A stretch of DNA of 64,000 nucleotides from Halalkalicoccus sp. CGA53 (GTDB lineage: Archaea > Halobacteriota > Halobacteria > Halobacteriales > Halalkalicoccaceae). Below the pieces are notes generated by a model. It was given only the letters and a program-made list of their open reading frames with translations, searched no databases and was not told the origin of the DNA. Within the stretch, counting starts at the first letter, position 1; each line of letters begins with the position of its first letter. Position numbers and translations under genes: made by a program. Shown in pieces: positions 24,879 through 50,951 of this stretch. The stretch covers positions 3,427,521 through 3,491,520 of the forward strand of contig NZ_CP144125.1 in NCBI RefSeq assembly GCF_036429475.1. The letters are read 5' to 3'.

Positions 24879-24949
24879 AGCGTAGGTTCCTCGATTCCAC
24901 CCGAATTACGACTGTGTATGTTGGTTTGCCTAAACCCACTTTCGGTGGC
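24879..24949. promoter_or_regulatory. orc1 upstream region, possible origin fragment
   Basis: Contains TTCCACCCGAATTACGA and CCACTTTCGGTGG (a short inverted repeat). The first recalls the TTCCACTCGAAAC-type core of haloarchaeal origin repeats, but the match is loose. The whole block recurs at 42621-42690 and partly at 50520-50563, always with the orc1 5' end. Confidence 0.4.
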
Positions 24950-33125: not shown

Positions 33126-33812
33126 ATGGATAAGTCCGCTTTAGAAGCAAGCGGTTTGGTCATACGGCGAGGAAACCGGACGATACTGGATGGGGTGTCA
33201 CTCACCATCTCTAAGGACAGTAGCATCCTCATTCAGGGGCCAAGTGGTGCGGGCAAAACCACACTCTTCGACGTTCTCGGCCTTCTCGATCCACCTTCGA
33301 CCGGAACGCTCCTTGTAAACGGACAGGACGTCAGCCAGGTTTCCGAACGTACGCGCGCACGGATCAGACGTGACACCGTGGGCTTCGTCTTTCAGGATTT
33401 CCGGCTCATTGACGACTTGACTGCTCGTGAAAACGCGGCCGTTCCACAGGAACATCGGGGGGATCGCGACGAGGACTGGCTTGATACGCTCTTCGATATC
33501 CTTGATATTGACGACCGGGTCGATCAGTATCCGGCCACACTTAGCGGCGGCGAAAAACAGCGCGTCGCCATCGCACGAGCACTGGCGAACCGCCCTGAAA
33601 TCGTCCTCGCTGACGAACCGACCGGCCAGCTCGATCCGGAGACGGCGACTCGGGTCCTCGATCTTCTCTCTGATCTTCGCGACCGGACCGAGACGGCACT
33701 GATCGTGATCAGTCATGATCGTCGTCTCGCGGATCGATTCGACCGTATTCTCTTACTCGAGGATGGCGCACTGACCGAGCGAGCACACACGGAGATCGAA
33801 CAGCCTGCGTGA
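33126..33812 (+). CDS. ABC transporter ATP-binding protein (MacB/LolD type)
   Basis: 228 residues with Walker [11 protein letters not shown]-loop VFQDFRLI, signature LSGGEKQR, Walker [13 protein letters not shown] and the switch His in VISHD. This is the class that powers FtsX-fold permeases (lipoprotein release, peptide or lipid efflux). Two giant FtsX-like permeases follow on the same strand and have no other ATPase nearby, so it probably serves both. The gap to the first permease is 119 nt. Confidence 0.92.
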
Positions 33813-33931
33813 TGTTCCTCCCACTTCATACGCAATCACCGCAATCCATCGACCTTCCCCAGGGGTCTCCCTGGGACCAACAGCTTCGGCGATCGACCAA
33901 CAGGCACTACCAGTGTATGAACCGTATCTAA

Positions 33932-36900
33932 ATGGGATATCGCCGGGCAATCCTTCAGCGATGGTCACGCCGCGATTGGCTGACGGTCGTTATTATCGCG
34001 GTCGCGACGGCGTTTCTCGTCGGAACGACAGTGCTCCTTCTAGCAGCGGGCGCCCATGCAGCGACGGTGAGCGGTGGTTTAGAGACGTCGACGACCGCGA
34101 CCCACTACGACTCAGTCAGCGAAGCCGAGGAGATCGGTGGGAATGAAGCTGTGGTGTTCCCCCTCGCCGTAGTCATCGACGATAGCGGTACGGAACACAC
34201 TCTGATCGGAATACCACCGGACGCTCCGGCCGAGTTTGAGGATGCTACGACCTCCTGGGAGGCAGCCACCGTTCCATCGCCTGGCGATCCGGAGACGGTA
34301 CGAGGCCCCGTTTCCGAGCCAACGGAATTGCGATTCGCAGGTCAGAATGAGACGATAGCCGTCACTGTCACGCCACACGAGGCCGAGACGATCTTCCCAG
34401 CGTGGTGGCATTCAGCTCCCAGTTCGACAGTTGAGACGCTCGGATCGACGGGTGCGATCGTTATCGAAGCTGATGAGGAGATCACGAGACAGAGTGCGAG
34501 TCTCCTCCATTTCGACCAGTCCGATAGCGGCGTTCCGCTCGTTTCTGCACTCGCGTTCCTTCTCGCCGGTATGGGTGAAGTGCTCCGGCTGCTAGGAGCT
34601 GCTACTGTCGGTGGAGCAGTGATCGTGACCGTCGTTCTCTACAGCGTCACCCGTATCAGCGTTCAGGAGCGTCTCGATACGATCGAAGTGATCCGCTCTA
34701 CCGGTGGCACACCAGCGCATGTGCTTACGCTCTACGGAGCTCGATCAACACTCATCGCCGCCGTAGGTGTGGTAAGTGGCTTCGCCGTTGGGGTTCTGCT
34801 AACGAATCTCTCCGTCAGGGTTGCAATCTGGGCCGGCATTCCTGTCACGTTGGAGCCACAAGTGACCCTCGCAAGCCTTCGGGTACTCGTGCCAATGCTT
34901 GTGACACTGGTGGTCGTCGGATGTCTTGCCGGTCTGATCGCATCCTGGCCAGCAGCGACCGGCCCACCAACGGCGATACGATCCCGGGTTCAGAGGAAAA
35001 CGACATCGACCCCCTTTCACCGAACCGAGTCACGTCTTCCAGCTACCCTCTTTCCAACGCTGTTGGACTGGCGAACGGTCATTCCTACCACGGCGACGCT
35101 CACCGTGTTCGTTCTCTTGGTCCTCCTGATCAGCGGAATCGGTGTCGCAGTCGAACCCGTGGGTGACACCGAGGGAGGGACTGTGACCGCTGCAGATGCG
35201 GCTCATCCGATAGATAGCCGCCTCGACGCGGGGACTGCGGATGCGCTCCGATCTGAAGGGATCGCTGCCAGCCCGGAGCTCGTGCTTGCACAGGTACATG
35301 ACGGGCAGCCCTACATGGCCCGTGGGGCGAACTACCCTGATTTCGCCGCCGTGACCGATGCGGAGTTGATCGACGGCCGAGAACCAACGTCACCCGATGA
35401 AGCCGTCATCGGACGCTCCCTCACTGAAACCCTCGATGTAGAGTCCGGTGATACGATCACACTCGGTGGAAGCGGCCACCCGGGAGTCGCGCGCGTGACG
35501 ATCGTTGGTGTCTATGAGGCGGACGGTCCGGCCGATAATCAGCTCATCGTCCCCCTCGAAACCGGCCACCACCTCTCGCTCGAACCGGGAACGGTCCACG
35601 TTATTCGAACGACCGAAGAGGCAGGCGCCCTCCTCGGCGAGGCGGACGCAACGGTAGAGCATGGCTCCGATACGGATAGTTCGGCGGAAGAACGCGTGGT
35701 ATACGGACTGAACGTCCCGGAGACAGCCGTTGTCGGTGAGACAACGACGATCGGGGTCCACGTCTACAACGACGAATCGACAGCGGTTACGCGGACACTT
35801 GATATCGCAGTTGAAGAGGAGACGTATGAGCAAGAGGTTGAGCTCGCGCCTGGTGAGGAGGACCGAATCGAGATCGAACATACGTTTGGAGAGGCCGAGG
35901 AGCGGACAGTAACGGTCGAGGAACACTCACAGCAGATCACGGTCCTCGAATCAGATGCCCTTGTACTCCCCGATACGCTGCCCACTGACGCTCCACCCGG
36001 TGCCACTCTCCTTGTCGACGTGTCGACCCCAACCGGAGAGGCTGTCAGTGATACCACCGTCGCGATCGATGGCGATGAAACGACGACGGACGCGAATGGA
36101 GTAGCCCAACTGGAGCTTCCGGAGAACGAGGGTGAGTACGACATCACTGCAACGGAAGGCGATCGCGATGGCGCGACGCACACCGTGCAGGTCACCGAGG
36201 GACGAGAACAGCGAATCGGCGTGGATCTCCAAACGGAGCCTCGAACCGGCACACCGGAGACGGCTCCCGAGATGACGATGACCGTAACGAACCACTGGAC
36301 CGAGACACGAACCCAAGACGTTGGTCTCGTCACCCCAACGGGCGAACAGACCCAACCCGTACTCCTCGAACCCGGCGAGTCTACAACGATAGAAACGACC
36401 GTTGGTGAAGGGGAGTCGGACACCCAACTCCCCCCCGGTGAGTACGAGATCGTAGCAACTGTCGATGGTGATGCTGTCGCGACCACGGAGTATGAAGTCG
36501 TAGATACCGATTTTGATCTTGATGCAGCTTTCGAGCGAGGACAGTACAGTTCCGGAGCGGCGATGAGTCACGTCGTCGAAAACACCGTAGGGAACATTCA
36601 GCTGCTGCTCGCGACAATGGTCGGACTTGCGGGGTTGATGACGATCGGGAGCACGACGGCGGCGTTCGCACAGTCGGTCCACGCACGTCATGAAACGATC
36701 GCCGTTTACCGAGCCACGGGGGCTGGTCCAAAACGCCTTCTGAAGATCGTCGGTCTGGATGCCTGCAGATTAGCGATTCCAGCCGCCCTCTTCGCCGGAA
36801 TAGCTGCCCTCCTCGCGATTACCGTGCTGGATACGATAGGTGTACTGAGCGTCTTCGGGGTTCGATTTGGGACTGACGTACGACCTCTTTTAGTGTTACT

Positions 36901-37039
36901 GACGCTTCTTGGCGCAGTGTGTCTCGCCGTCTGTAGCGCTGTGCTCGCGCTGCTCCCGGCGTTGATCTCCACGCCGGCTAGTGTGTGGATTGGAGCATCA
37001 CGAAGCGGATCCGCAGATGGTGATCGACCGGATGAGTAG
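33932..37039 (+). CDS. Giant FtsX/MacB-like ABC permease with Ig-like extracellular domains
   Basis: 1035 residues. One N-terminal membrane helix (about 17-39) is followed by an external domain, a first FtsX core of three helices (about 200-350, with SVTRISVQERLDTIEVIRST), another helix near 385-405, a MacB-like external domain (about 410-560), and a long beta-rich part (about 560-860). That part contains a carboxypeptidase-regulatory/Ig-like unit (VSDTTVAIDGDETTTDANG, then VAQLEL) and a second such domain (VTNHWTETRTQDVG). A final FtsX core follows (about 875-1020). The Ig-like insert is unusual for the family and may bind a cell-surface substrate. It is a paralogue of the protein at 37705-40620, and the two probably form a heterodimer. 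Confidence 0.85.
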   Translation: MGYRRAILQRWSRRDWLTVVIIAVATAFLVGTTVLLLAAGAHAATVSGGLETSTTATHYDSVSEAEEIGGNEAVVFPLAVVIDDSGTEHTLIGIPPDAPAEFEDATTSWEAATVPSPGDPETVRGPVSEPTELRFAGQNETIAVTVTPHEAETIFPAWWHSAPSSTVETLGSTGAIVIEADEEITRQSASLLHFDQSDSGVPLVSALAFLLAGMGEVLRLLGAATVGGAVIVTVVLYSVTRISVQERLDTIEVIRSTGGTPAHVLTLYGARSTLIAAVGVVSGFAVGVLLTNLSVRVAIWAGIPVTLEPQVTLASLRVLVPMLVTLVVVGCLAGLIASWPAATGPPTAIRSRVQRKTTSTPFHRTESRLPATLFPTLLDWRTVIPTTATLTVFVLLVLLISGIGVAVEPVGDTEGGTVTAADAAHPIDSRLDAGTADALRSEGIAASPELVLAQVHDGQPYMARGANYPDFAAVTDAELIDGREPTSPDEAVIGRSLTETLDVESGDTITLGGSGHPGVARVTIVGVYEADGPADNQLIVPLETGHHLSLEPGTVHVIRTTEEAGALLGEADATVEHGSDTDSSAEERVVYGLNVPETAVVGETTTIGVHVYNDESTAVTRTLDIAVEEETYEQEVELAPGEEDRIEIEHTFGEAEERTVTVEEHSQQITVLESDALVLPDTLPTDAPPGATLLVDVSTPTGEAVSDTTVAIDGDETTTDANGVAQLELPENEGEYDITATEGDRDGATHTVQVTEGREQRIGVDLQTEPRTGTPETAPEMTMTVTNHWTETRTQDVGLVTPTGEQTQPVLLEPGESTTIETTVGEGESDTQLPPGEYEIVATVDGDAVATTEYEVVDTDFDLDAAFERGQYSSGAAMSHVVENTVGNIQLLLATMVGLAGLMTIGSTTAAFAQSVHARHETIAVYRATGAGPKRLLKIVGLDACRLAIPAALFAGIAALLAITVLDTIGVLSVFGVRFGTDVRPLLVLLTLLGAVCLAVCSAVLALLPALISTPASVWIGASRSGSADGDRPDE

Positions 37040-37318
37040 TGCTCCGCGATGCCCAACCACACCTCCTTTTGCAATCATTCTAGGAGAAAGTCAGGAAGGA
37101 CTGCTATGCCAGAGCAGATATATCTTATATATAATCTATTTCATTCAAGGCTGATAGATCGGGCTCTCCAGTGTAAGTGCGTTGAACGGCGTCCGAGTTT
37201 TAGCGCTTAGTGGCTGCGGCATTCGTGTTCGGTTAACACTGCCAGTAATATTTGCAGATCTGGCATTGGCCCGAATTCGCCAGTTGAAAGGCAGAATTCG
37301 GCTATTTACCCACTTGAG

Positions 37319-37615
37319 TCAGAGCCCGAGACCCAGCAATTTGTCACTCGGAGCCTCAACCGGACACGAATGGTGACTGCGGTGGTGGTTGTAGTAAGCG
37401 GTATAGGCAGTCAGCCAGCGCTCGGCGCTTGATTGACTGCCGCTCCAGGTTCCGTGAAATCTTCGGATTCGCGTGGTGTATGTCAAAAAGCGGTACGTCT
37501 GAAGAACCTGTCACTCCGGTCCGGAGTTCTTCGAACAGTATTCTACTTCCCTCGAAGGACTCCGCTCAGTTCAGCCTCAATCTAGCAGTGCAATGTGTAA
37601 AACCATTTCTGTAGA
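37319..37615 (-). pseudogene. IS6-family transposase remnant
   Basis: The minus frame ending at 37319 reads TRIRRFHGTWSGSQSSAERW and then LTAYTAYYNHHRSHH, aligning with the RIDRFHQTW...WLTAFVHYYNWQRP region of the copy at 31622-32290. Upstream, LQKWFYTLHC matches EKWFQTLPM, but about 130 bases of unrelated sequence separate the two, so this fragment carries an insertion. It splits the two permease genes. Confidence 0.55.
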
Positions 37616-37704
37616 CATACAAAAAGCTATATGTTTCCAACGGAATTTTTATTCATGTCGTCGATAGCATCGAGTAGCTTCTCGCCAGCGCCAACCGACT
37701 GGCG

Positions 37705-40620
37705 ATGAGCTACCGAGAGACAATTATTCGGCGGTGGTCACACCGTGATCGACTCGCAATCGTGATGGTCGCGTTGACAGTCGCATTTCTTACAGGAAGT
37801 ACGTTGTTCATCGTGGCCGCCAGTGCTCAACCGCTTGCTCTTGCGGATCCGCTTACCTCGTCTGGGACGGCAGACGCCCTTGAACCGGGTGATGCGCCGG
37901 AGGACGCGCTGGTTCTACCCGTAGCAGAGGTTACTAAGGACGATGGAACGAACGCTACGGTCATCGGTGTCCCGGCTAACGCAGCCGAATCGTGGGACGT
38001 ACCGCCACCGCCGGATGATGGCTTTGGGCATGGAGAGGAGACCGCTGGCAGCGTGGAGTTCGAGGGTGATTCCGGTGCCGTTGAGGCGGCTGTGTATCAC
38101 CATGGCGAAGATTCGCTCCTCGACCCTAACTGGTACATCACGGATCCGGAGACGGTCGCTGACCTCGGCACGACCGAAACGCTCGTCATCACCGATGACG
38201 AGACGCATGTGCCGGCAAGCGGTGTGCCTCTTCAATCGGTGCTGGGCTTCTTCGTCGCCGGTCAGTCACAGCTACTTACGACGCTGGGGGCGGTCGTTGC
38301 CGGCGGCGCGATTCTCGTCGCGGTGACGGTTTATAGCGTCACCCGGATGAGCGTCCGCGATCGGCTTGCAACGATCCGTACTGTCCGTTCGACGGGAGCG
38401 GCCCCCCGGACCATTCTTGGGACGTTCGCGCTACGTGCCAGCCTTCTAACCGCTATCGGGGTAACCCTCGGGTATGCTCTCGGCGTAATTCTTCCGAATG
38501 CGGCGCTCTCAGCAGCAGTATTCCTTGGCCTACCGACCGCTCTTGATCTCAGATTGACATCGCAGGCGCTGTACGTTTTGGGCCCCACCTACGTCGGCTT
38601 GGTTCTTCTCAGCGCGGTAGCAGGGATGCTAGCCAGCTGGTCGGCAGTTCGCAGCCCCCCTGCGCAGCTTTCGACCACTGTTGAGGGCCCACGCTCGCCG
38701 GGGCTACTGTTGCTCGATTGGAGAACCCTCGTCCCGACGACCGCAACGCTATCGGTGTTTCTGTCGATTCTGTTCGTAACCTCGACGCTTGCGATGACGG
38801 CTGCCCCCGTCGTTATGGCTGACAGTACGACGATTTCCGAACCCGGTGTTGCTCATCCAGTCAATAGCGAACTGCCCGCGGAGTACGCAAATACACTCCA
38901 CGCCGATGATATTGACGCCAGTGCTGAGATCATCGGCTTTGCAGTTGTTGACAATCAGCCGTTCCTTACGCGGGGGGTTGAGTATGACGACTTTGAAGCG
39001 GTCACCGATGCTGATCTCGAGGACGGCCGTGCTCATGAAGCACCAGATGAAGCAGTCATCGGTGTCTCGCTAGCCCAGACGCTCGACATCGATGTCGGTG
39101 AATCACTCACCGTGGGTGGAAGCACCGCTGACGGAGTCAGTCGAGTCACCGTTGTCGGGACCTATACCGCCCCCGGTGCTCATGAGGATCAGCTCCTCCT
39201 GTCGCTACGAACTGCGCAGCATCTCTCGGGTCTGGACACCGATAAAGTATACGTAATCCGTACTGCAGAGCTGCCTGATACGGGCGAATCCGATTCTGGA
39301 GTGACCGTTCTTGACGTTTCAGCGTCCGAGGGCGCCATCGCACATGACTCCTTCGAGGTCGAGGTCACGCTCCGAAATCATGACTCCGATGAGCAGTCCT
39401 ATCCACTGACTGCCGGACTTGGCGATGAGGAGACCGAACAGGAGGTAAGACTCGAGGGCGAGGAGCAGCGAACCGTACAACTTTCACTGCCGACTGGTGA
39501 ACCTGGAGAGGAGCTGCTACAGGTAGATGAAACGGCTATCCATTCTGTCGGCGTCGTTCATCCGGAGACACCAGAACTGCATGGCGTCCCGGATAAGATG
39601 CCACCAGGGAGCCAACCACTTATCGAAGTCCGTACTGAGACGGGGGAGCCGCTTGCGGACACACCTGTCACTGTCGCGAATGAGACCGCGGAGACGGATT
39701 CGGAGGGCCATGCCAGGCTGCCGGCCGCTTCGGAAGGCAGTCATGAGATTCGGGTCGAGACTGAACACGGCATAGCAACTGAGACGATTGAGATCTCGGA
39801 TGACGCTGAGCGTGAGCCTGTCACTTCGATTAGCGTATCGCCCGACTCTTTGACAGTACTCACAACGCCTGAAGCTGAAGTCTCGGTCTATAATCCGTGG
39901 AACGAGCCTCTCGACACTACCGTTCGGATTATCGGTCCGGATACTACCTCCGAAGAGCAGGTGACGCTCGATGCTGGCGAATATACGGAGTTCGGAACCA
40001 TCCTCACCCGCCAGCCGCCGGGATCGTATGACGTACACGTCGAAACCGATGATACGGTCGGTGCAGAAACGAGTTATGAGGTATCTGGTGACGAGCGTAT
40101 TGGTGCTGCCGCTGCGAGTGTCGGCCAGACGGAAGGTAGTAGCGACCTCGGTCAGGCTATCGAAGCTGCAGTCGGCAACCTCACGCTTCTCTTGGGTGGA
40201 TTAGGAAGTCTAGTGGCAGTAATGACTATCGGCGGACTTTCAGCAGCAATAGCTCGAGCGGTCCATGCCCGTCGACGAACGATTGGCATTCATCGAGCTA
40301 CCGGAGCGAGTCCCCGCCGTATCTTGCAGTTGGTACTACGAGATACGGTCATTATCGGCACTGTAGGGGCCAGCCTTGCCTTCGTTGCGTCACTACTCGT
40401 CATGCAGCTACTGGATGTCACAGGCTTGTTGACAGTGTATGGTATCCGTATACCGGCGATTCCACCACCTGGCGTACTGCTTGTGGGATTCGTCGTTAGC
40501 ATTGCTCTGACACTCTGTAGTGCAACGGTTGCTCTCATCTCATTGCTCTATGAACCACCCGCTTCCGTAATGACTAGAGAACAACGAGCCATGCCTGGGG
40601 GTGAATCCCGTGAGAGATGA
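37705..40620 (+). CDS. Second giant FtsX/MacB-like ABC permease
   Basis: 971 residues with the same architecture as the permease at 33932-37039 and recognisable sequence identity: opening YRETIIRRWSHRDRLAIVMV versus YRRAILQRWSRRDWLTVVII, and SVTRMSVRDRLATIRTVRST versus SVTRISVQERLDTIEVIRST. It also carries an external Ig-like/carboxypeptidase-regulatory unit (LADTPVTVANETAETDSEGH) before the last membrane core. It probably pairs with the first permease and the ATPase at 33126. Its 3' end overlaps the next gene by 20 nt. Confidence 0.85.
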   Translation: MSYRETIIRRWSHRDRLAIVMVALTVAFLTGSTLFIVAASAQPLALADPLTSSGTADALEPGDAPEDALVLPVAEVTKDDGTNATVIGVPANAAESWDVPPPPDDGFGHGEETAGSVEFEGDSGAVEAAVYHHGEDSLLDPNWYITDPETVADLGTTETLVITDDETHVPASGVPLQSVLGFFVAGQSQLLTTLGAVVAGGAILVAVTVYSVTRMSVRDRLATIRTVRSTGAAPRTILGTFALRASLLTAIGVTLGYALGVILPNAALSAAVFLGLPTALDLRLTSQALYVLGPTYVGLVLLSAVAGMLASWSAVRSPPAQLSTTVEGPRSPGLLLLDWRTLVPTTATLSVFLSILFVTSTLAMTAAPVVMADSTTISEPGVAHPVNSELPAEYANTLHADDIDASAEIIGFAVVDNQPFLTRGVEYDDFEAVTDADLEDGRAHEAPDEAVIGVSLAQTLDIDVGESLTVGGSTADGVSRVTVVGTYTAPGAHEDQLLLSLRTAQHLSGLDTDKVYVIRTAELPDTGESDSGVTVLDVSASEGAIAHDSFEVEVTLRNHDSDEQSYPLTAGLGDEETEQEVRLEGEEQRTVQLSLPTGEPGEELLQVDETAIHSVGVVHPETPELHGVPDKMPPGSQPLIEVRTETGEPLADTPVTVANETAETDSEGHARLPAASEGSHEIRVETEHGIATETIEISDDAEREPVTSISVSPDSLTVLTTPEAEVSVYNPWNEPLDTTVRIIGPDTTSEEQVTLDAGEYTEFGTILTRQPPGSYDVHVETDDTVGAETSYEVSGDERIGAAAASVGQTEGSSDLGQAIEAAVGNLTLLLGGLGSLVAVMTIGGLSAAIARAVHARRRTIGIHRATGASPRRILQLVLRDTVIIGTVGASLAFVASLLVMQLLDVTGLLTVYGIRIPAIPPPGVLLVGFVVSIALTLCSATVALISLLYEPPASVMTREQRAMPGGESRER

Positions 40621-42271
40621 GCGGCTGTGGTCACAGTATACCCTCGCTGTTTTCTGTGTGTTTGCGCTCGGCGTCGCTATCAGACTCGTCCCGTTGTACT
40701 GGACGCCGTATCCGTTCAATCCAGATGGGTTCGTCTTCGCAGGGATCGCACGGGATACCTTGGCATCGGGATCGGTCCCTCAGCCGAGCGACCACCGGAG
40801 GATGGAGGTAAATCGATACGTCTTCGTGGTGCTTCTGGTGGTCCTCAGTAGGATAACCGGCCTCGCGCCGCTGTGGCTTGCTCAACCGGTTATCGCAGTC
40901 GTTGGAGCCGTTCCGCCAATCATCGCGTTACTGCTGGTTCGTAACCTCGGACTTGAGTTCGGATGGCCTCCTCGACGGACGCTCGTCGCCGCCACGCTCG
41001 CTGGATTCGTCCTCGCGATTGAAGGGCTCTATCTCCGCCGGACCGTAACGGTCAGCTATGAGGTGCTCGGACTGTTGCTCGTTCCAGTTGTCCTCCTCTG
41101 CGTTCACCGGTTCTTTGAGACATCGCGGCGGGCTTGGGTCGGGGTCGCGGGGATATTGCTACTCGTGTTGCCGGCGACGCACCACTTCAGCACGGTGATC
41201 GCTGCGGTATCGCTGACGGTCTTGGTCGCCGTTTGGATCAATCGACGACCATCGTGGTTAACACTCGGAGGCTTGGGTATTACTGTGGGGTTCTGGCTGT
41301 ATCTGCTCGTATACTACGCACAATCACCTCCGGGACACTCCGACGTCATTACGACGAATCCCGCACTGGTCATCGCGTGGCTCATCGCGATCATCGCTTT
41401 AGCACACTGGTTTCGGACAGCGACTCCCTGGCTGACTCGTGGAGCGATCGGATGTATTGGTTTCTTCGGATTTGGTGTGCTTAGTCTCAACGCGATCCGA
41501 CCGATTTTCCCTGGAACATCTCCCACGCCGTCGTCATTGCTCATATTAGTCGCACCCCTGATGGTACTCGCCGTCCTCGCGACCTGGGGCCTGCCCATTA
41601 TGATTAGATCGAAAGAAGGACCTCTCGTCCTCACACTGTTGATCGCGCCGCTCACCTTTATCGGCCTTGGCTTGACTGCTGGATTATCCCTCCAGTATGA
41701 TTTTCTGGTAATGCGCACCCAGACGTTCGTTCACCTTGGAACCGTCGTGATAGCAGCAATGGCGGTCTTCGTCCTCTATGACCGCGTGCCTGATCGACCA
41801 CTGCCACTAACCATGACGGTCAAAGTGGGTCTTCCAATACTGTTGATACTGGTTGCTGTTGTCACCGTTCCGATCGCCTTTGCAGGGCTCGAAATGCTCT
41901 CCTACCAAGGAACGACTACCGAAGCGGAGTTCTCGGCGGTGACGTTCGCTTCAACGACGATGGAGACTTCCTGGAGTGGGGACGATCATATCACTCGGAT
42001 CGAATCCAATTACTACGGTTCCGATTATAATATGGGCCCACATCCAGTCTATGAGTGGCTACAGGGAGGCGATCCTCCTCCCTGTCCAGTAGTCGCACAA
42101 GATTCCTGGACCACTCTAGGTGCACAACTGTATCCTGCTCCGCCAGAGGACCTCGATGAGCAAACATACGCTGACTGGCAGGAGACTAACAACGCAATCT
42201 ACGTCTCTGGTGAGAGTGATGATCAAACCGTGATCGTTGTACCGACTGGTAAAGTAGAGGGGGACTGCTGA
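40601..42271 (+). CDS. Polytopic membrane protein, GT-C-like
   Basis: 556 residues with about 12 membrane helices and a short soluble C terminus. The first loop contains WTPYPFNPDGFVFAGIARDT, an acidic-aromatic loop of the sort seen in GT-C glycosyltransferases (AglB/STT3, ArnT, PMT relatives), and later GLYLRRTVTVSYEVLGLLL. I would not assign a sugar or acceptor. The 20-nt overlap with the second permease gene places it in the same operon, suggesting that it modifies or supplies the transported surface molecule (inference). Confidence 0.65.
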   Translation: MNPVRDERLWSQYTLAVFCVFALGVAIRLVPLYWTPYPFNPDGFVFAGIARDTLASGSVPQPSDHRRMEVNRYVFVVLLVVLSRITGLAPLWLAQPVIAVVGAVPPIIALLLVRNLGLEFGWPPRRTLVAATLAGFVLAIEGLYLRRTVTVSYEVLGLLLVPVVLLCVHRFFETSRRAWVGVAGILLLVLPATHHFSTVIAAVSLTVLVAVWINRRPSWLTLGGLGITVGFWLYLLVYYAQSPPGHSDVITTNPALVIAWLIAIIALAHWFRTATPWLTRGAIGCIGFFGFGVLSLNAIRPIFPGTSPTPSSLLILVAPLMVLAVLATWGLPIMIRSKEGPLVLTLLIAPLTFIGLGLTAGLSLQYDFLVMRTQTFVHLGTVVIAAMAVFVLYDRVPDRPLPLTMTVKVGLPILLILVAVVTVPIAFAGLEMLSYQGTTTEAEFSAVTFASTTMETSWSGDDHITRIESNYYGSDYNMGPHPVYEWLQGGDPPPCPVVAQDSWTTLGAQLYPAPPEDLDEQTYADWQETNNAIYVSGESDDQTVIVVPTGKVEGDC

Positions 42272-42462
42272 CAGCCAGTTCAAGATTCGCACCCGCTCCG
42301 TAATCCTCGAGTTCTCAAGAGGGAAGCCGAGCGTGAAGAGACATATGGCGAACTGTTCAACATCAACTCCCCGGACGTCGTTCCGATCGCAGTAAAGACG
42401 GCCAGAACCGATCACCCGATAGATGATGTCTGGACGGGCGTTTCAGCGTGGAATACGACCTG

Positions 42463-42690
42463 CCGTCGGTCACACCCGTGAGGATCTCCGCGAGCGCTCG
42501 TTCCTGCTCCGTCCGCGGAACGATCTCCGTCGGTATCCTGAGTGGATCGAGCTCTCCTTTCGCCGCGAACACCGACTCCCTGTTGGCCGTCTCGTCGAAG
42601 AGATCGTCGTACCGTGACATAGCGTAGGTTCCTCGGTTCCACCCGAATTACGACTGTGTATGTTGGTTGGCCTAAACCCGCTTTCGGTGG
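42463..42690 (-). pseudogene. Duplicated orc1 5' end and upstream region (copy 1)
   Basis: Codons 1-52 of orc1 (MSRYDDLFDETANRESVF to ILTGVTDG) plus about 70 bases of upstream sequence are repeated here with few differences from 24720-24948; the frame then runs into unrelated sequence. It shares the variants GAAGAGATCGTCGTACC and CTCGGTTCC with copy 2 at 50475 rather than with the intact gene, so both fragments come from another, closely related orc1 copy. Confidence 0.8.
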
Positions 42691-42864
42691 AGTCTCTCGT
42701 AACCGAGCGCTTGGTGTGAGCATCCGCTCACGAGAGACAAGAGTTGGCTGTCACAGTTCACCTCGGCAGCGGGTCGCCAGGTCGCCCGCTCGAGGACCAG
42801 TCCCCACCACTCGAGTGCTTGGACGTCCCGACCGGCGACTCTGAGTGAATTCGCCATCGGCCAG

Positions 42865-43326: not shown

Positions 43327-44391
43327 TCAGAACGTCGAGGTGTACGGACTCCAGATCTCGTAGGAGTCCGGGAAGAGCGTGGGATCGGTCTGGCCCATCG
43401 ATCCCGGCCCGAAGTAGTCCGGGTAGGTGTTCGAGTAATCGTGTTCGATCGGGGCCCCACCGTACCATCCGTCACCGTAGTAATCGAAGATGTCCCAGCT
43501 GGCTGCCGCCGGACCGCTCGTCCCTCCGCCGGGGTATATCGGCGTCACCGGTCCGTACATACCTTCGTACATCCCGATCGGGGAATCCGACAGTATCCCC
43601 GGGACGTTCTCGAACCCGTGTTCGTAGATCAACGCCTCGTACGCCTGGGTATCCGCGGGCGTTTCGCCCGTCATCTCCGAGATCGAGGCGTAATCCCCGT
43701 AGTACGGCGTATCGTACCCATACCAGACCGACTCCGGGCCGACGAAGGCGTCTCCGGAGGCCCAGTCGACGGTGTAATCGTAGCTGTAGGGGTCGGTGTA
43801 GTACTCTGCCCCGGTGGTAGCACCCGACCAGTCGTACGAATCCGGAGCCCCAGGATACGTCGGGTCTGTCCAGTAGTACTCAGTTCCACCATCGTAGATA
43901 TCCCACCCACCGTACCATCCGACGGAGGGATCGTAAAGCATGCCGGTCGCTGGATCGAAGCCCTCCCCGGTCTCCGTGTTGAAGAAGATGCCCGTGGTGG
44001 AATCATACGAGTGACTCGACACCGGATCCGAATACACACCGGTGCTCGCGTCGTACTCCCAGCCCGAAAACGCATCCGAAGCCCCCTCAGAGAGCTCCTC
44101 GTCCGATTCACTCGAGATGTCGGATGCATCTTCGGACCCTGAACCCTCATTCGCGTAAGGTGTCTCTGATCCCACGTCGCTATCGGGATCCAGGGCTGAT
44201 TCGTCGTATCCATACTCGTCCTCGGGAGTGAAATCGTAGCCATACTCGTCGTAACCGTACTCCGAGCCACCCTCGACGATGCCCGTCGCGACCTGCTCAG
44301 TATCCGAAGCGGCCCTCGTGGCCGAGATTTCCGACTCGCCGTTGAGTTCGGATAGTAATTCGTCTAATAGGTCGAGTACCTCCTCGCTCAT
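43327..44391 (-). CDS. Tyrosine-rich OCRE-like repeat protein A
   Basis: 354 acidic residues starting MSEEVLDLLDELLSEL. The start at 44391 is supported by a TATA-like TTGTATAACG about 25 nt upstream, making the message leaderless. After the N-terminal amphipathic helix come a low-complexity segment with YGYD units (GYDEYGYD, DEYGYDES), a Ser/Glu-rich spacer, then repeats of the form Y-D-x-x-T-G-(I/M)-(F/Y): WEYDASTGVYSDP, YDSTTGIFFNTETGEGFDP, ATGMLYDPSVGWYGGW. The rest is Tyr/Gly/Asp/Pro-rich. No signal peptide or membrane helix. It shares plan and repeat with the protein at 48533-49819. The pattern resembles eukaryotic OCRE repeats. Function unknown; assembly or condensate formation is inference. 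Confidence 0.75.
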   Translation of the reverse strand: MSEEVLDLLDELLSELNGESEISATRAASDTEQVATGIVEGGSEYGYDEYGYDFTPEDEYGYDESALDPDSDVGSETPYANEGSGSEDASDISSESDEELSEGASDAFSGWEYDASTGVYSDPVSSHSYDSTTGIFFNTETGEGFDPATGMLYDPSVGWYGGWDIYDGGTEYYWTDPTYPGAPDSYDWSGATTGAEYYTDPYSYDYTVDWASGDAFVGPESVWYGYDTPYYGDYASISEMTGETPADTQAYEALIYEHGFENVPGILSDSPIGMYEGMYGPVTPIYPGGGTSGPAAASWDIFDYYGDGWYGGAPIEHDYSNTYPDYFGPGSMGQTDPTLFPDSYEIWSPYTSTF

Positions 44392-44616
44392 GATCCCCAC
44401 GCACTACGCATTGTATAACGTTAACTCTTCACATTGGTTCGAGTCGACACGAGCCGAGGGAGTACGGCGATACCGAGGGCGACCCCCGAGGACGTCGGAT
44501 CGAGAACCGAATACCCGACCGGCTCTCCGTTCGGCTTCGATTAATTCGAGAAAACCAACGTTCTCGGTCGTAGGAGTGTCCACTTCGGGGTACGGGAGCG
44601 TCGATCTCTCCGATCG

Positions 44617-45996
44617 TCACGGGCGATCCGATTTCGCCCCGCTGCCAAGCGATCGAATGAACAGCGCGAGCCGTGAAGGCGATCGGTGTTCCGAGGCACG
44701 CTCTGCTGAGATCGCTTTCCACATCGTCCCCAAAAAGACGCTCGTGCCGACGAGGACGAGAAAGAGGAGAAACGGGCTCAACAGTACGACGACGAGCCCG
44801 ACCAGTGGTACGATCATGACGAAGGCAAACGCGATCGCCAACGCTACGTAGGCCCCGAGGAGGCGTAGATGACCGACGAGGTATGATCTCCGCCAGAGCG
44901 TCCTCTGGAGCGACTTCCGGTCGAGAACCGACCGGAGTTGTTCCGTTTCCACGTACTGAAAGTAGGCAGCTGGGAATACGTAGTATGCGATCGACGAGGC
45001 GACGACGGTTAGCAACGGCATGACCCACTCGTACTGGAGCGCTAATGGGAGAATGAGGACGCTCAAGGGTCCTAAGAGGGTGAAAATGGCGTACAGAGGT
45101 AGTGTGAGGTAGACCAAAAGGATCATGCTCAGCATGACACCATCGATTAATAAGGGTGACAGGTTCTTGAATCGGGGAAGAGGCGGATAGCCGTAGTGGA
45201 CATTCCGGCTCGTCCGAACGAGATAACCGAACACCGGACTGAGGGATAGAAGCGTCAGTGCCCAGATGGCGATCCCTTCTATCGTGGTAATCTCGCTGTC
45301 GAGGTAGAAGTAACTCACGAGCATCACGAAGATCACGCCGCTCAAGAGACAGAGAAACCCACCGACGAGAAGCGAACTCCAGTGGATGTCCCTCCAAACC
45401 GCGCGTGCTGCCTGCACGACCGATGGCTTCGGAATTGCCGGTTTGTGGACCTCGTCGACAGTGTCTTCTGATAGCTTCTGAAGAGGAGGTTCGGCTTCTC
45501 GATGGTCGTCATCGGAGGAGCCTACAACGGAATCAGCGTTCGACTCTGCAGCGGAGTCGGGAATCGATTCGACTCGTCTCCGTGCGATATCGTAGCCGTG
45601 GATGATGAACTGATAGGTGTCGAGGGGTGGAGAAATCTCGACAGCCACGCGGGTTGCGGATGCTTCGAGACCGTTTCGGAACCGACGGGTGGCCCCTCCA
45701 GTGATCTCGATTCGTTCGCCAGCACTGAACCGATTTGGAGTCGTCGCCGAGCGTTGCCCTTCGGGATCGTCCTCCCGTGATAGTTCCGCTAATTCGCCTT
45801 CGAGAACGGTGATCGAGAGGGTTTGCTCGGGACGTCGTCGCTCGAGTTCGAACAATCGACCGGCGAAGCCGGGTGCAATCGCTACTTCGAACGCTAAAGA
45901 TCCCGACCCGCTTTCTGTAGGGACTTTCGTGAACCGTACTCGGTTTCCAGTGATCTCGTTTTCGATCTCCATTCCCGGTGTATTTTTCTCAGTCAT
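44617..45996 (-). CDS. Cupin-like/DUF4013-like membrane fusion protein
   Basis: 459 residues. The N-terminal part (about 5-135: ENEITGNRVRFTKVPTESGS, SITVLEGELAELSRED, ERIEITGGATRRFRN) has the beta-rich, Gly-spaced look of a small cupin. An acidic, probably disordered linker follows (about 145-195). Then come about six membrane helices with the DUF4013-type opening YPPLPRFKNLSPLLIDGVML. A cytoplasmic cupin joined to a membrane domain would couple ligand sensing to membrane behaviour (inference). It starts 9 nt after the Hsp20 stop, so it is in that operon. Confidence 0.7.
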   Translation of the reverse strand: MTEKNTPGMEIENEITGNRVRFTKVPTESGSGSLAFEVAIAPGFAGRLFELERRRPEQTLSITVLEGELAELSREDDPEGQRSATTPNRFSAGERIEITGGATRRFRNGLEASATRVAVEISPPLDTYQFIIHGYDIARRRVESIPDSAAESNADSVVGSSDDDHREAEPPLQKLSEDTVDEVHKPAIPKPSVVQAARAVWRDIHWSSLLVGGFLCLLSGVIFVMLVSYFYLDSEITTIEGIAIWALTLLSLSPVFGYLVRTSRNVHYGYPPLPRFKNLSPLLIDGVMLSMILLVYLTLPLYAIFTLLGPLSVLILPLALQYEWVMPLLTVVASSIAYYVFPAAYFQYVETEQLRSVLDRKSLQRTLWRRSYLVGHLRLLGAYVALAIAFAFVMIVPLVGLVVVLLSPFLLFLVLVGTSVFLGTMWKAISAERASEHRSPSRLALFIRSLGSGAKSDRP

Positions 45997-46005
45997 CTCA
46001 TCCCC

Positions 46006-46701
46006 TTAGTCGATCTCGATCCGATGAGTGGAAGCCCCATCAGTGTCTTTGGGGAGATGAACGGTGAGAACGCCCTCTGCCATCGTAGCGCTGACACTCT
46101 CGTCGTCAATGGCTTCAGCTATCGGAATCGAACGAAGCACGATCGGTTGCCGCTCTCTCCGGACGTAGGGGGTTCTCCCCTCGGTTTTTGCCATGTCTTC
46201 GTCCTCTCCCGAACGTGCTGCTCGAATGTGGAGCACGCCCTCTGTGAACCCAAGCGTGATGTCCTCGCGTTCGAACCCCGCGAGATCGGCGACGACCGAA
46301 ACCTCCTGGTCGTGATTCAGAATATCGACGGGGATTCGATGACCGCCTCGTGGTCCTTCCCTCGGAAGGCCAGGGAGCGGGGGCCGGCCCATCGCCATCC
46401 CGGTCCCGACCGGTCTAGATCCCTGCATTCCGGGTCCTCCCGGAATCGGAGGACGTCCGTTTGGCGCCTGCTTGAATGCTCCGGGCACTGGTCGTCGATA
46501 CTGTGCGCTCGTAGGCGACTCGGCCGTTTGCTCGATCGTCTGTTGCCTCGCGGAAAGGATCCGCAGTTGCTGTTGGATTCGATCGACCTCCTCCCGTATG
46601 CTTGCCAGCTCCTCGAATCTGTGGTGGAGTTCATCGACGATCTCTTCTAGTTTGGCCTCGTTGCCGTTCGATCCTTCCGATTCGGTTGTTTGTTCGTTCA
46701 T
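46006..46701 (-). CDS. Hsp20/alpha-crystallin small heat-shock protein with Pro/Gly-rich linker
   Basis: 231 residues. N-terminal coiled coil (about 15-60: KLEEIVDELHHRFEELASIR), a linker of about 50 residues rich in Pro, Gly and Arg (about 68-120: RPVPGAFKQ, PPIPGGPGMQGSRPVGTGM), then an alpha-crystallin domain (about 123-231) with VVADLAGFEREDITL and the closing MAEGVLTVHLPK. Small Hsps hold unfolding proteins in soluble form without ATP. The coiled coil and low-complexity linker are unusual and suggest recruitment to a specific client or phase. It lies 78 nt downstream of the HtrA gene. Confidence 0.88.
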   Translation of the reverse strand: MNEQTTESEGSNGNEAKLEEIVDELHHRFEELASIREEVDRIQQQLRILSARQQTIEQTAESPTSAQYRRPVPGAFKQAPNGRPPIPGGPGMQGSRPVGTGMAMGRPPLPGLPREGPRGGHRIPVDILNHDQEVSVVADLAGFEREDITLGFTEGVLHIRAARSGEDEDMAKTEGRTPYVRRERQPIVLRSIPIAEAIDDESVSATMAEGVLTVHLPKDTDGASTHRIEID

Positions 46702-46779
46702 GTTGATTGTTATCCTCGACGTTCGTTCCCCGATCCGTACCGCCTCGACGGCCTATGACCACGTGATGTACCGATGGTC

Positions 46780-48303
46780 TCACACCTCGACCACCTGAAA
46801 CGTGTCCGCTATGTGGTTCAGCGCATCCAAGTCACGGGCTTCGACGAGTTGCACCTCGACGACTATCACGTATGACCCGTCGGCCGGTCTGGCGGCGATG
46901 TGGACCATAGTCGACTGGGCCTCGCCACACGTGGTGAGTTCTCGAGCCACCCCCGTGTACAACGGATCGGCGTATTCGACCGGTTCGTTGATTGTACAGG
47001 CCGTGTGCGTGAGGGAATCGAGTACTGCGCCGGGATCGGCGCTGGCGTCCTCGAGCCAGATCGCGAGACCCGGACCCCCGTACGTATCAGTGAACTGATC
47101 GAGGTCGGGTGCGGCAAGGAGGCGGGGGCCGAACTCCGTCGAGCGGCCATCGACCTCTGACCATTCGGATGGGACCGCGACCTGAATGGCACCGGTGTCA
47201 TCGGTGATAACGACGTACTCCTCGTAGGCGTCATCGACTTCGGGTTCACCGATCGTAACCTCGGCCGGCTCGAGCTCTCGTCCGTTGATCTCACCTTCTA
47301 GCACCACGCCCTCCCGATACACACTAACGGCGAGTACATCGTTGGACGAACGGGTACGGAGGACGTTACAGTACTCCTCCATCGTCCCCTGGCCGGCCAT
47401 CGGGAGCCGTTCGATCGCAGTGATAATGTCTCCGGGTCGGATTCCGGCATCGCTCGCGGGGCTACCGGACGTCGTTGCTGAAACCCAGATTCCTGCGGGA
47501 TCGCTCCCGTCGGCTGGAACGGCGAAACCGTTGATCCCAAGCGTCTGGACGTCTTCTCCCTCACGCAGGCGGTCGACGATATCCCTCGCGACGAGGACGT
47601 CGATCGCGAAGTTCTGGGTGTGACTGAAGGCGTCGATCGGATCGATCGCCGAGTAGTTGATCCCGACGACGCGACCATCCTTATCGACTAACGGTCCACC
47701 CGAGTTTCCCCCTTCGAGCTGGGCGGTGTGTTCGATTACCGAATCAACCGAGGCCCAGCTCGTTGGAGCGGACTCGAATCCCGTAATCGTACCGTGGGTC
47801 GTCGTATACGACGGATCCCCGCCCGGAAACCCGAGCGCCCAGACTTCATCTCCGGTTTCGAGGTCGCCGTCGTACCACCTCAGGTGCTGAAATCCGTCTC
47901 CCTGGATATCGATCACCGCTAAGTCCGCACACTCGGACACACCGAGTACAGTCGCGTCGTACTGTGTTTGCTCGCTGCCGACGAAAACCCGAAGCGTAAC
48001 GGCACCGGCGACGTTGTGATTGTTCGTGATCGCGATCCCCGACGGGTCAACGATGAATCCGGAGCCGGCACCGAGCATCACGTCGTCACCGTGCTCTGCG
48101 TAGGTGCCTTCGGTGGTGATCCGAATGACAGCCGCTCGCGCGTCGTCGACGTTTCTCGCACCACCTGCATCGATGATCCCGGTGACAGCATCGACACATC
48201 CCGTTCCCGCGAGGACGCCAGCCGCTGCTACTAACTGAAGGATTTCTCTGCGGCGTACGCTCTTTGTGTACCCACTCCCATGTGTATCGTGTTGGTCGTT
48301 CAT
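46780..48303 (-). CDS. HtrA/DegP-like serine protease with PDZ domain, Tat lipoprotein
   Basis: 507 residues. A Tat-type lipoprotein signal (SVRRREILQLVAAAGVLAG, TGC) places the lipidated Cys at 36. The trypsin-like domain has His96 in AITNNHNVAG, Asp127 in ECADLAVIDI and Ser201 in EGGNSGGPLVD. One PDZ domain follows (about 255-345, with SGSPASDAGIRPGDIITAIE). An extra C-terminal domain (about 370-507, AIQVAVPSEWSEVDGRS onward) is not part of ordinary DegP. It would be exported folded and tethered outside the membrane, cutting or holding misfolded surface proteins. It opens a minus-strand set with hsp20 and the cupin-membrane gene. Confidence 0.92.
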   Translation of the reverse strand: MNDQHDTHGSGYTKSVRRREILQLVAAAGVLAGTGCVDAVTGIIDAGGARNVDDARAAVIRITTEGTYAEHGDDVMLGAGSGFIVDPSGIAITNNHNVAGAVTLRVFVGSEQTQYDATVLGVSECADLAVIDIQGDGFQHLRWYDGDLETGDEVWALGFPGGDPSYTTTHGTITGFESAPTSWASVDSVIEHTAQLEGGNSGGPLVDKDGRVVGINYSAIDPIDAFSHTQNFAIDVLVARDIVDRLREGEDVQTLGINGFAVPADGSDPAGIWVSATTSGSPASDAGIRPGDIITAIERLPMAGQGTMEEYCNVLRTRSSNDVLAVSVYREGVVLEGEINGRELEPAEVTIGEPEVDDAYEEYVVITDDTGAIQVAVPSEWSEVDGRSTEFGPRLLAAPDLDQFTDTYGGPGLAIWLEDASADPGAVLDSLTHTACTINEPVEYADPLYTGVARELTTCGEAQSTMVHIAARPADGSYVIVVEVQLVEARDLDALNHIADTFQVVEV

Positions 48304-48532
48304 TTATCTTCTGCGCTCTGTACTCTACTCACCACCCTCTCCCGAGTCGTACGAGACTTTTAAGTATCAATACAGGATTGCCAATGGCATAAGCATTATC
48401 ACTATTTGTTATGTAGGTTTTCGAGCAATCTAATCTATCAGTTCGGGAGAACGGCCGGCTGAAATAGCTGAGTACTCGGTTAGTGAATGATAAATAGTGG
48501 ACTTTATCCGTTTCGATGACCTCTCGATATCA
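48304..48532. promoter_or_regulatory. Divergent promoter region between htrA and repeat protein B
   Basis: AT-rich in two places: GATACTTAAAAGTC (minus-strand reading) near 48355-48370 for htrA, and TGATAAATAG at 48487-48496 for the plus-strand gene. Shared control of the two divergent genes from this 229-bp gap is possible. Confidence 0.45.
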
Positions 48533-49819
48533 GTGAGTGACGAAGTGTTGGAACTGCTTAGCGAATTGATTGAATGCGTGGATGAGGCGTCCGAGGTGTA
48601 CGTTGACGACGGCACCGGATTCGACGATGTAGAGACAGGTGAGAACCTCCACCGGTATGAGCCGACCGACTACGGCTACGATGACGTCGGTCCCGTCGAG
48701 CAGCTCTCTGAGGGGTACGATCCGATCGAGTACGGGTACGAGACCGGAGAGTCGGCGACCAGTACCGATGCGAGTGTCGGATACGGTACCGACGACGCAG
48801 TAATCGGACAGGGCGAGGGTTCCGATCTATCGGTGACCGACGCAACTACACCTGCTGAAGCGACCGAATACGCCGCACTCTCGCAATCCGCAACTTCGTA
48901 CGCCGACGGGTACGGCGTATCTGAATGGTCATACGACGATACATACGGTACCTACATCAATTCGACGACAGGCGAGGGCTACGATCCAGCGACCGGAATG
49001 GTCTACGATCCAGCGACCGGCTGGACCGACGGCTATTCCGGGAACTGGTCGACCGATGAACTAGCCAACTACGGGTATGCGGACGGCTGGACGTACGATT
49101 CCGCCACCGGGATGTACATCGACGCCTCGTCGGGGGCCGTCTACGACCCGATGACTGGTGAGAGCTACGATCCGATGAGCGGGATGGTCTACGACCCGAC
49201 TACCGGCCTCGCGCGAGGATACTACGATAGTTTGTCGGGGTGGTTCACGGACGCGTCCGGTCTGATGTATAACCCCCACACGAACGTCCTCTTCGATCCA
49301 TCGACCGGTGGGATGTACGATGCGACTACGGGGTTACCGATTGACAGCGTAACTGGACAGCCAATCGATGATTCTACGATCACGATTGGTGGAATCGACA
49401 TGGGGCCTGCGATCGGAAACGTCTCTTACGATTCTACGACGGGGGTCTTCATGGACCTGTCAACCGGCGCCACGTACGCGTTCGACCCAGCTACCGGAGC
49501 GTTGATCGACCTCGCAACCGGCCTACCGGTTCAAGCTCCTACGATTACCGTTGGCGGCTTCACTGGGATGGGTGAAGGAGGGTCGCTCGCGGGTTCGATC
49601 GTCGGTATCGCAGGCATGCCAGGAGCACTCGAATCGGGAGTGTATCCCGCACCGCTCGCCGACTCGTCCCCCGATTACTACACGACTCCTATCACCGTCG
49701 GACCCGGGTCGCCTGTGCCGGGGTTGTCTCAGTACGAACTCGATCAGCGATGGATCATGGATCAGCAGGCGATGGGAGATCCCTATTACCAGACCGTGCC
49801 GGTGGACACCGGCGTCTGA
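48533..49819 (+). CDS. Tyrosine-rich OCRE-like repeat protein B
   Basis: 428 residues from a GTG at 48533 (VSDEVLELLSELIECVDEAS), chosen because it aligns with MSEEVLDLLDELLSEL of protein A and lies about 40 nt after a TATA-like box. A GTG 12 codons earlier is possible. YGYD-type segment (TDYGYDDVG, EYGYETGES), spacer, then a long run of eight-residue-like units: YDPATGMVYDPATGW, YDSATGMYIDASSGAVYDPM, TGESYDPMSGMVYDPTTGL, FDPSTGGMYDATTGLPID, YDSTTGVFMDLSTG. This is close to the OCRE consensus of aromatic-Asp-Pro-x-T-G steps known from RBM5/RBM10. Strongly acidic, no signal peptide or membrane helix. Function unknown. Confidence 0.78.
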   Translation: MSDEVLELLSELIECVDEASEVYVDDGTGFDDVETGENLHRYEPTDYGYDDVGPVEQLSEGYDPIEYGYETGESATSTDASVGYGTDDAVIGQGEGSDLSVTDATTPAEATEYAALSQSATSYADGYGVSEWSYDDTYGTYINSTTGEGYDPATGMVYDPATGWTDGYSGNWSTDELANYGYADGWTYDSATGMYIDASSGAVYDPMTGESYDPMSGMVYDPTTGLARGYYDSLSGWFTDASGLMYNPHTNVLFDPSTGGMYDATTGLPIDSVTGQPIDDSTITIGGIDMGPAIGNVSYDSTTGVFMDLSTGATYAFDPATGALIDLATGLPVQAPTITVGGFTGMGEGGSLAGSIVGIAGMPGALESGVYPAPLADSSPDYYTTPITVGPGSPVPGLSQYELDQRWIMDQQAMGDPYYQTVPVDTGV

Positions 49820-49867: not shown

Positions 49868-50225
49868 GAGACACTGTCTACTCTGCACCCTCCGTTTGAG
49901 TCTTTTCATCGGGCGTGTGATGCGGTCTGGCGGTTGTAGTAATGCCAAATTGTTCACTCGCTCTTCCGTAGAGGATTGTTGATACAGTTCGGTTCGTCAC
50001 TGGCTGAGCCGGACTCGGGATGTTGAGCGGTTCGTAACCCATCGCTCAATTCTTGGTATTCGGCGGAAAACCGCAAGACTGCGCTCCATCAACAAGGTGT
50101 TACGCAAGAGCATTGTCAACATTCACCTGCGCTCGACTGACAGCCAATCCACGAGTTATGGAAACGCTCGAAGCGGATTTTGAGGGTGTGAAACCACTGC
50201 TCGATGAGATTTCGGTCAGTATAGT
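49868..50225 (-). pseudogene. IS6-family transposase remnant interrupted by a MITE
   Basis: Minus-strand pieces NYTDRNLIEQWFHTLKIRFE and RFHNSWIGCQSSAG align with the copy at 31622-32290. After a 157-bp interruption the sequence resumes as WHYYNRQTASHA, matching VHYYNWQRP, and ends near an IS6-like ACACTGTCTA end. The missing middle is replaced by the element at 49957-50113. Confidence 0.65.
49957..50113. mobile_element. 157-bp MITE of IS1595/ISH4 type
   Basis: The left end GCTCTTCCGTAGAGGATTG then TTGAT, and the complement of the right end GCTCTTGCGTAACACCTTG then TTGAT, are inverted repeats. The right-end neighbourhood (GATGGAGCGCAGTCTTGCGG) closely matches the left interior of the IS at 24950, so it is an internally deleted derivative of that element. 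It sits inside an IS6 remnant. Confidence 0.65.
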
Positions 50226-50474: not shown

Positions 50475-50563
50475 TACTCCCTGTTGGCCGTCTCGTCGAA
50501 GAGATCGTCGTACCGTGACATAGCGTAGGTTCCTCGGTTCCACCCGAATTACGAGTGTGTATG
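50475..50563 (-). pseudogene. Duplicated orc1 5' end and upstream region (copy 2)
   Basis: Contains the first 15 or so codons of orc1 (MSRYDDLFDETANRE) and about 44 bases upstream, up to TTACGAGTGTGTATG. It has the same orientation and the same sequence variants as copy 1 at 42463-42690, so the pair forms direct repeats around the intervening 7.8 kb. Confidence 0.78.
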
Positions 50564-50951
50564 TCTCGGATCGTGAATCGAGTTTCGGTGCGGAGGGAGG
50601 ATCAGATCGATCGACCGGTATTCGGTATCGAAGCGAGGTGGGGTAGGGCCGTTGCGAGTGTTCGCTCTCCGAGGGAAATCAGTGCTCGTTGTGCACACCC
50701 GATTCCCGACCCCCACACGTCATTAGGTGATCAGGGGATTCGGTATCATAAGTTCGATGTATTATTTCACGGACACCTGGAAGCACTATGTCCGAATTGA
50801 TTTCCGCTCGGATCCTATCACGACGGCCGTGATGGCTTAAGATGTAGATCTATAGGCGAGGTGAAGTTCCTCACCCGTACCGCGTTGTATCGTCTCCGTT
50901 CGAGGTGGGCCGGGTAGCCGCTCACCATCGTGTACTCGTCTCTCGTGTCGA
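50564..50951. other. Intergenic, no gene seen
   Basis: An 81-codon plus frame here (from 50555) has no protein-like character. AT-rich spots near 50745-50770 (GTATTATTTCACGG) are the only promoter-like sequence. Confidence 0.4.

Follow-up and report, generated by a model that had tools for sequence, protein, structure and literature searches.

OCRE-like repeat proteins encoded beside a proline-arginine-armed Hsp20 in a haloarchaeal genome: a candidate polyproline link

In a haloarchaeal-type genome (4.04 Mb, two contigs), an island of five genes places archaeal OCRE-like repeat arrays beside a small heat-shock protein with a polyproline arm, an arrangement so far known from one genome. Our best reading, which we hold tentatively, is that the two repeat proteins, A and B, may be multivalent scaffolds recruiting the adjacent Hsp20 via OCRE–polyproline contacts. 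The island lies at 43327–49819 of the window, by which we mean the whole 64,000-nucleotide stretch analysed (3427521–3491520 of contig C2 of the genome), and coordinates below are those of the window unless another locus is named. The five genes within 6.5 kb reported in the initial annotation were all found in the ORF list, and its domain calls for A and B, DUF4013, Hsp20 and HtrA were borne out by Pfam:

43327–44391, minus strand: repeat protein A, OCRE-like, 11% Tyr, net charge −72 (ORF as listed 43327–44400)
44617–45996, minus strand: cupin-like/DUF4013 protein, with a cupin-like N-terminus (approximately residues 12–147) and a DUF4013 membrane domain (244–395)
46006–46701, minus strand: Hsp20, with an N-terminal coiled-coil-like arm, a Pro/Gly/Arg linker and a C-terminal alpha-crystallin domain
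46780–48303, minus strand: HtrA-type protease, with a Tat/lipobox signal, PDZ and an extra C-terminal domain (approximately residues 340–507)
48304–48532: divergent intergenic region between htrA and gene B, with putative TATA-like stretches in both directions by reading
48533–49819, plus strand: repeat protein B, OCRE-like, net charge −69 (ORF as listed 48497–49819)

On the minus strand, htrA is followed after 78 bp by hsp20, and hsp20 after a further 9 bp by the cupin-like/DUF4013 gene; gene A lies 216 bp beyond the last of them, and gene B is divergent from htrA.

The ORFs of A and B as listed begin with VGIMSEEVLDLLDELLSEL and VDFIRFDDLSISVSDEVLELLSELIE, respectively. A probably starts at ATG 44391 rather than at GTG 44400, and B likely at GTG 48533 (residue 13 of the listed ORF, which has a GTG codon) rather than at 48497. 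With these starts both proteins begin with MS(E/D)EVL(D/E)LL, and by reading a TATA-like stretch is situated approximately 25–28 nt upstream of each. The N-terminal helix motif common to both, MS(E/D)EVLxLLxEL, is located as follows:

44347–44391, minus strand: helix motif of A, MSEEVLDLLDELLSE, aligned with MSDEVLELLSELIE of B
48533–48580, plus strand: helix motif of B, MSDEVLELLSELIECV

Of the 15 residues in this alignment 8 are identical, 7 of them via different codons. A and B matched each other in blastp at 1e-24 (low-complexity filter off), and their aligned blocks gave a dN of 0.35 and a saturated dS, with 20 of 33 identical residues encoded by different codons. By these measures A and B are true paralogues, and because of the dN, the saturated dS and the synonymous codon differences we consider them old duplicates that have diverged and been retained at the protein level. 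Both are rich in Tyr (8–11%) and Gly (13%), and [YF][DN]xx[TS]G motifs occur 4 times in A and 11 times in B, compared with 0.17 and 0.16 expected from same-composition shuffles. No signal peptide, transmembrane or hydrophobic segment was found in either protein by sequence reading.

The assignment of the repeats to OCRE comes from profiles, alignment and structural modelling. The Pfam OCRE profile (PF17780) matched A in two stretches (3e-6, 27.6 bits) and B in four (1.1e-26, 93 bits), both scores exceeding the curated cut-off of 24.7:

43963–44067, minus strand: best OCRE stretch of A (residues 112–146), PF17780
48926–49519, plus strand: OCRE-like octapeptide array of B (approximately residues 144–341, YDPxTGxx)

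Residues 126–167 of A align with the OCRE domain of RBM10 as far as its terminal W-D. When a profile of five blocks from A and B was compared with all PDB chains, RBM10 OCRE (3.5e-5) and RBM5 OCRE (1.3e-3) were matched, after which only RBM5 itself scored below 0.04. A template-free model of B residues 192–246, built from five aligned rows of repeats taken from within the proteins, had a mean pLDDT of 69 (core 74–85), and its top two PDB matches in Foldseek were RBM5 OCRE (5mf9, probability 0.99) and RBM10 OCRE (2mxw, 0.96), the third being at 0.41. The TM-score to RBM5 OCRE was 0.57 with a Foldseek E of only 0.09, which may be expected for 55 residues; this medium-confidence model predicts the OCRE beta-sheet fold for the B block. 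The AlphaFold model of full-length B (pLDDT 37) was set aside as too low in confidence for use; it shows an N-terminal helix at 15–31 and the same strand periodicity. The initial annotation had described low-complexity, Tyr-rich, OCRE-like repeats; the likeness to OCRE held up, and the proteins are more than low-complexity sequence.

The ligand-contacting residues are only partly conserved. With RBM5 numbering inferred from the alignment to RBM10/RBM5 and from the contacts in PMC5127646, A is aromatic at 3 of 7 ligand-contacting positions (472, 488 and 495 kept; 470, 479, 486 and 497 lost), keeps the acid D481 and has Thr in place of S484. The blocks of B are poorer in these aromatics, mostly with one Tyr per octamer, so that the several aromatics per octamer on the ligand face of OCRE are absent or only partly present. 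Since this defining aromatic chemistry is incomplete, we call the domain OCRE-like; it may work like OCRE.

The candidate ligand is in the neighbouring Hsp20. Pfam HSP20 (PF00011, 7e-12) covers its residues 126–230, corresponding to an alpha-crystallin domain, and the protein is acidic outside a basic linker that follows its N-terminal arm. The OCRE domain of RBM5 recognizes polyproline with the ligand consensus RPPP(P)G-phi-R, where arginines on either side of the prolines are needed, multiple motifs add avidity and four Pro-to-Ala changes have little effect (PMC5127646). The linker contains three R-P-x(x)-P-G motifs, none of them with three consecutive prolines:

46333–46503, minus strand: Hsp20 linker (residues 67–123), 57 residues with 13 Pro, 13 Gly and 8 Arg, net charge +8
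46480–46494, minus strand: proline motif 1, RPVPG (followed by AFK)
46438–46455, minus strand: proline motif 2, RPPIPG (followed by GPGM)
46369–46386, minus strand: proline motif 3, RPPLPG (followed by LPR), the closest of the three to the ligand consensus of RBM5 OCRE

In shuffles of the linker's own composition, the P value was 0.0006 for at least three such motifs and 0.0001 for two RPPxPG; both values are optimistic, as the motif was chosen after the linker had been seen. RPPxPG was absent from the other genes picked in the fetched haloarchaeal loci, and among 28 DNA matches in a genome-wide pattern search Hsp20 was the only frame with two of them. We inspected approximately 30 haloarchaeal Hsp20s besides this one, among them a further copy in the same genome, and saw no comparable arm; a search with the arm plus linker in 243 genomes of the order gave marginal matches only (best 9.7e-4) and no convincing relative. 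We infer that the linker is a candidate OCRE ligand. A scan of genome contigs with Hsp20 gave only an ordinary bacterial alpha-crystallin match, and no OCRE match was present in that bacterial genome. A relation to gas vesicles through the Hsp20-like GvpH was rejected, as no island gene matches gas-vesicle families in Pfam or NCBIfam.

From these features the following mechanism can be proposed. As judged from sequence and modelling, A and B are paralogous, very acidic cytoplasmic proteins, each combining tandem OCRE-like beta-hairpin octapeptides with an acidic DYGYD linker and, at the N-terminus, a short amphipathic helix. Hsp20, too, has no export signal or hydrophobic segment by sequence reading, and since all three proteins have no export signals they should share a compartment. 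The arrays of A and B might then dock the Pro-Arg motifs of the Hsp20 arm multivalently, by analogy with the binding of Sm tails by RBM5 OCRE. Small heat-shock proteins are oligomeric, so several arms could meet several OCRE blocks; the result would be an avid and reversible network in which Hsp20, together with whatever clients it has bound, is kept clustered or held where the N-terminal helices place it. OCRE is counted among the PPII-binding domains that may drive condensates (PMC8409303), and a condensate is possible. Speculatively, the DUF4013 protein could anchor or sense at the membrane. HtrA, which would work outside the cell, is probably tied to the island only by co-transcription or shared stress regulation.

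This division of compartments bears on the initial annotation, which had pictured a dedicated assembly system, such as a condensate, filament or surface layer, with its own proteostasis. The protease matched Pfam Trypsin_2 (1.7e-26) and PDZ (9e-8), and also degP_htrA (5e-39, below the NCBIfam equivalog cut-offs); its trypsin-like domain with the triad is followed by PDZ. By reading, its Tat motif, lipobox (Cys36) and catalytic triad (His96/Asp127/Ser201) are intact, the N-terminus carrying a twin-arginine signal and lipobox, RRREILQLVAAAGVLAGTGC, as had been described for a Tat-lipoprotein HtrA, and from this signal it is expected to be located outside the membrane. Since HtrA is exported while A and B are cytoplasmic, the protease could not act on them directly; joint proteostasis is plausible for Hsp20 only, and the role given to HtrA is weak. 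A surface layer is unlikely because A and B have no export signal. The C-terminal domain of HtrA, which has no Pfam name, recurs alone in other haloarchaeal Tat-type proteins (L073, 9073–10242; L074, 9293–10282), so the island protease is a fusion. In the cupin-like/DUF4013 protein, the DUF4013 part of the proposed fusion was confirmed (Pfam 6e-14; five hydrophobic segments), while the cupin part has no Pfam match of its own and comes from a haloarchaeal protein that matches it at 4.7e-7 and itself shows clear cupin-type motifs. A defence system was also considered and rejected, as there was only a generic protease match to RT-Protease_XI along with marginal matches.

PF17780 scored above cut-off in this genome only (1 of 392 genomes of the order, 1 of 10 of the family and 1 of 247 of the phylum), the two other genomes of the same genus in the comparison being incomplete (61% and 70%). 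The sole other OCRE match, a weak one in genome G249, was a terminase and thus a false positive. Relatives of A and B were not found in plasmids or phages by tblastn, where the low-complexity filter lowers sensitivity, or in viral contigs; a phage or plasmid origin of A and B was rejected, the one DNA-pattern match (L080) being a phage protein unrelated to them in which YDPATG occurs twice by chance. Relatives of Hsp20 occurred in 234 of 243 genomes, those of the DUF4013 type in 65 of 146 and those of HtrA in 83 of 146, and all three have unrelated neighbours there. The initial annotation had named scattered homologues of the repeat proteins, or hsp20 and htrA copies among unrelated neighbours, as grounds against its proposal; the latter was what we found, whereas repeat-protein homologues were confined to this genome. 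The five-gene set was present in none of the fetched neighbourhoods, including those of the best relatives of the cupin/DUF4013 protein and of the HtrA C-terminal domain. Ordinary hsp20 and htrA genes adjoin convergently beside metabolic genes in two genomes (G031 and G090) of one haloarchaeal genus in another family, with no repeat protein at either locus:

8921–10449 of L129: convergent hsp20/htrA pair
9397–10592 of L130: convergent hsp20/htrA pair

The flanks of the island carry relics of an orc1/cdc6 gene, an intact copy of which is present at 23655–24878:

42462–42701, plus strand: orc1/cdc6 5'-end relic on the left flank, 94% identical to 24720–24960
50476–50564, plus strand: 89-bp direct repeat of the same relic on the right flank, 99% identical to 42575–42663

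These direct repeats, 7.9 kb apart, mark a plastic region and may record an insertion or duplication that placed the island; a simple attL/attR pair does not fit because the right copy consists of the 89-bp core only. Just right of the island, 49986–50111 is an inverted copy (75% identical) of 24950–25079 upstream of orc1, possibly an origin-related sequence. Beside orc1, a gene like those for terminase large subunits (Terminase_6N, 21545–23173) suggests provirus or plasmid remnants. Elsewhere in the window, 33126–42271 encodes an ABC ATPase, a polytopic membrane protein without known family and a pair of FtsX/MacB-type permeases of very large size (1035 and 971 aa), and an ABC-transporter ATPase ORF at 53835–54341 matches only the C-terminal half of family profiles, the Walker A half being missing, and is possibly truncated or frameshifted.

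The OCRE assignment stands without any partner, and A and B could have the OCRE fold but bind one another, or a proline-rich or cationic protein other than Hsp20, in which case Hsp20 would be an ordinary stress-operon holdase using its disordered arm to control its own oligomers. The missing ligand-contact aromatics and the generally variable N-terminal regions of small heat-shock proteins (PMC9133787) are in line with this possibility, but the RPPxPG arm is a private feature of this Hsp20, whose gene lies between the two OCRE genes, and we consider such an arrangement somewhat unlikely. The view taken in the initial annotation, in which A and B are acidic low-complexity proteins of Tyr/Gly type that self-assemble or phase-separate via their Tyr/Gly/Asp repeats while Hsp20 holds clients in general, accords with their Tyr and Gly contents, their net charge of about −70 and the low confidence at which most of B was modelled, as is the case for disordered proteins. 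However, a purely disordered scaffold would need neither a regular 8-residue beta periodicity nor a recognisable fold, and electrostatic coacervation would be weakened in a high-salt cytoplasm; in our estimate this account is improbable.

That the genes of the set might be unrelated and have been brought together by chance or by mobile DNA, in a plastic part of the chromosome, seems to us improbable. The 89-bp direct repeats bounding the island point in this direction, as do the commonness of the Hsp20, HtrA and DUF4013 families and the occurrence of the set in one genome, whereas the tight packing of htrA, hsp20 and the cupin gene on one strand and the position of A and B, paralogues under protein-level constraint, on either side of these three genes argue against it.

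In the open papers mentioning the OCRE domain we found no account of it in archaea, and those discussing its function concern eukaryotic, mostly splicing, proteins. If scaffolding of Hsp20 by A and B is true, OCRE polyproline recognition works outside splicing, and it would offer a simple way of directing small heat-shock proteins to a particular place in a cytoplasm where salt weakens charge-driven assembly. A further step, which we judge unlikely as it stands, would make this a prokaryotic adaptor in which OCRE-type arrays dock a small heat-shock protein via a dedicated Pro-Arg arm, so that archaea would have a holdase placed on a scaffold or recruited to a condensate, independently of the use of OCRE in splicing.

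Compared with known systems, A and B resemble the OCRE domains of RBM5 and RBM10 (PF17780; 5mf9, 2mxw) in octapeptide periodicity, YDPxTG-type turns, modelled beta-sheet fold and a significant profile match, but they are archaeal and very acidic, consist of tandem arrays of many octapeptides, usually carry a single aromatic per octamer where OCRE has two or three, and are without RNA-binding or G-patch domains. Tyr-Asp repeats are also in common with YD/Rhs proteins, in one of which a weak OCRE match has been reported by CDD (PMC7400221); however, A and B have an 8-residue period and no Rhs family match in Pfam or NCBIfam, and an Rhs structure is only a weak fold match to the model of B 192–246. 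The Hsp20 linker shares PPII-type proline motifs, flanking Arg and Gly/Met with the proline-rich tail of SmN/B/B', an OCRE ligand, and both are on the disordered arm of an oligomeric protein (PMC5127646), whereas the linker has RPPxPG instead of RPPPPG and its carrier is a small heat-shock protein. The island HtrA has the Trypsin_2 and PDZ domains and the intact triad of HtrA/DegP, and differs in being a Tat-lipoprotein with an extra C-terminal domain. Lastly, the alpha-crystallin domain of the island Hsp20 is approximately 40–48% identical to haloarchaeal copies, whereas its N-terminal extension of approximately 120 residues, comprising the coiled-coil-like arm and the basic Pro/Gly/Arg linker, is a feature that sets it apart from these relatives.
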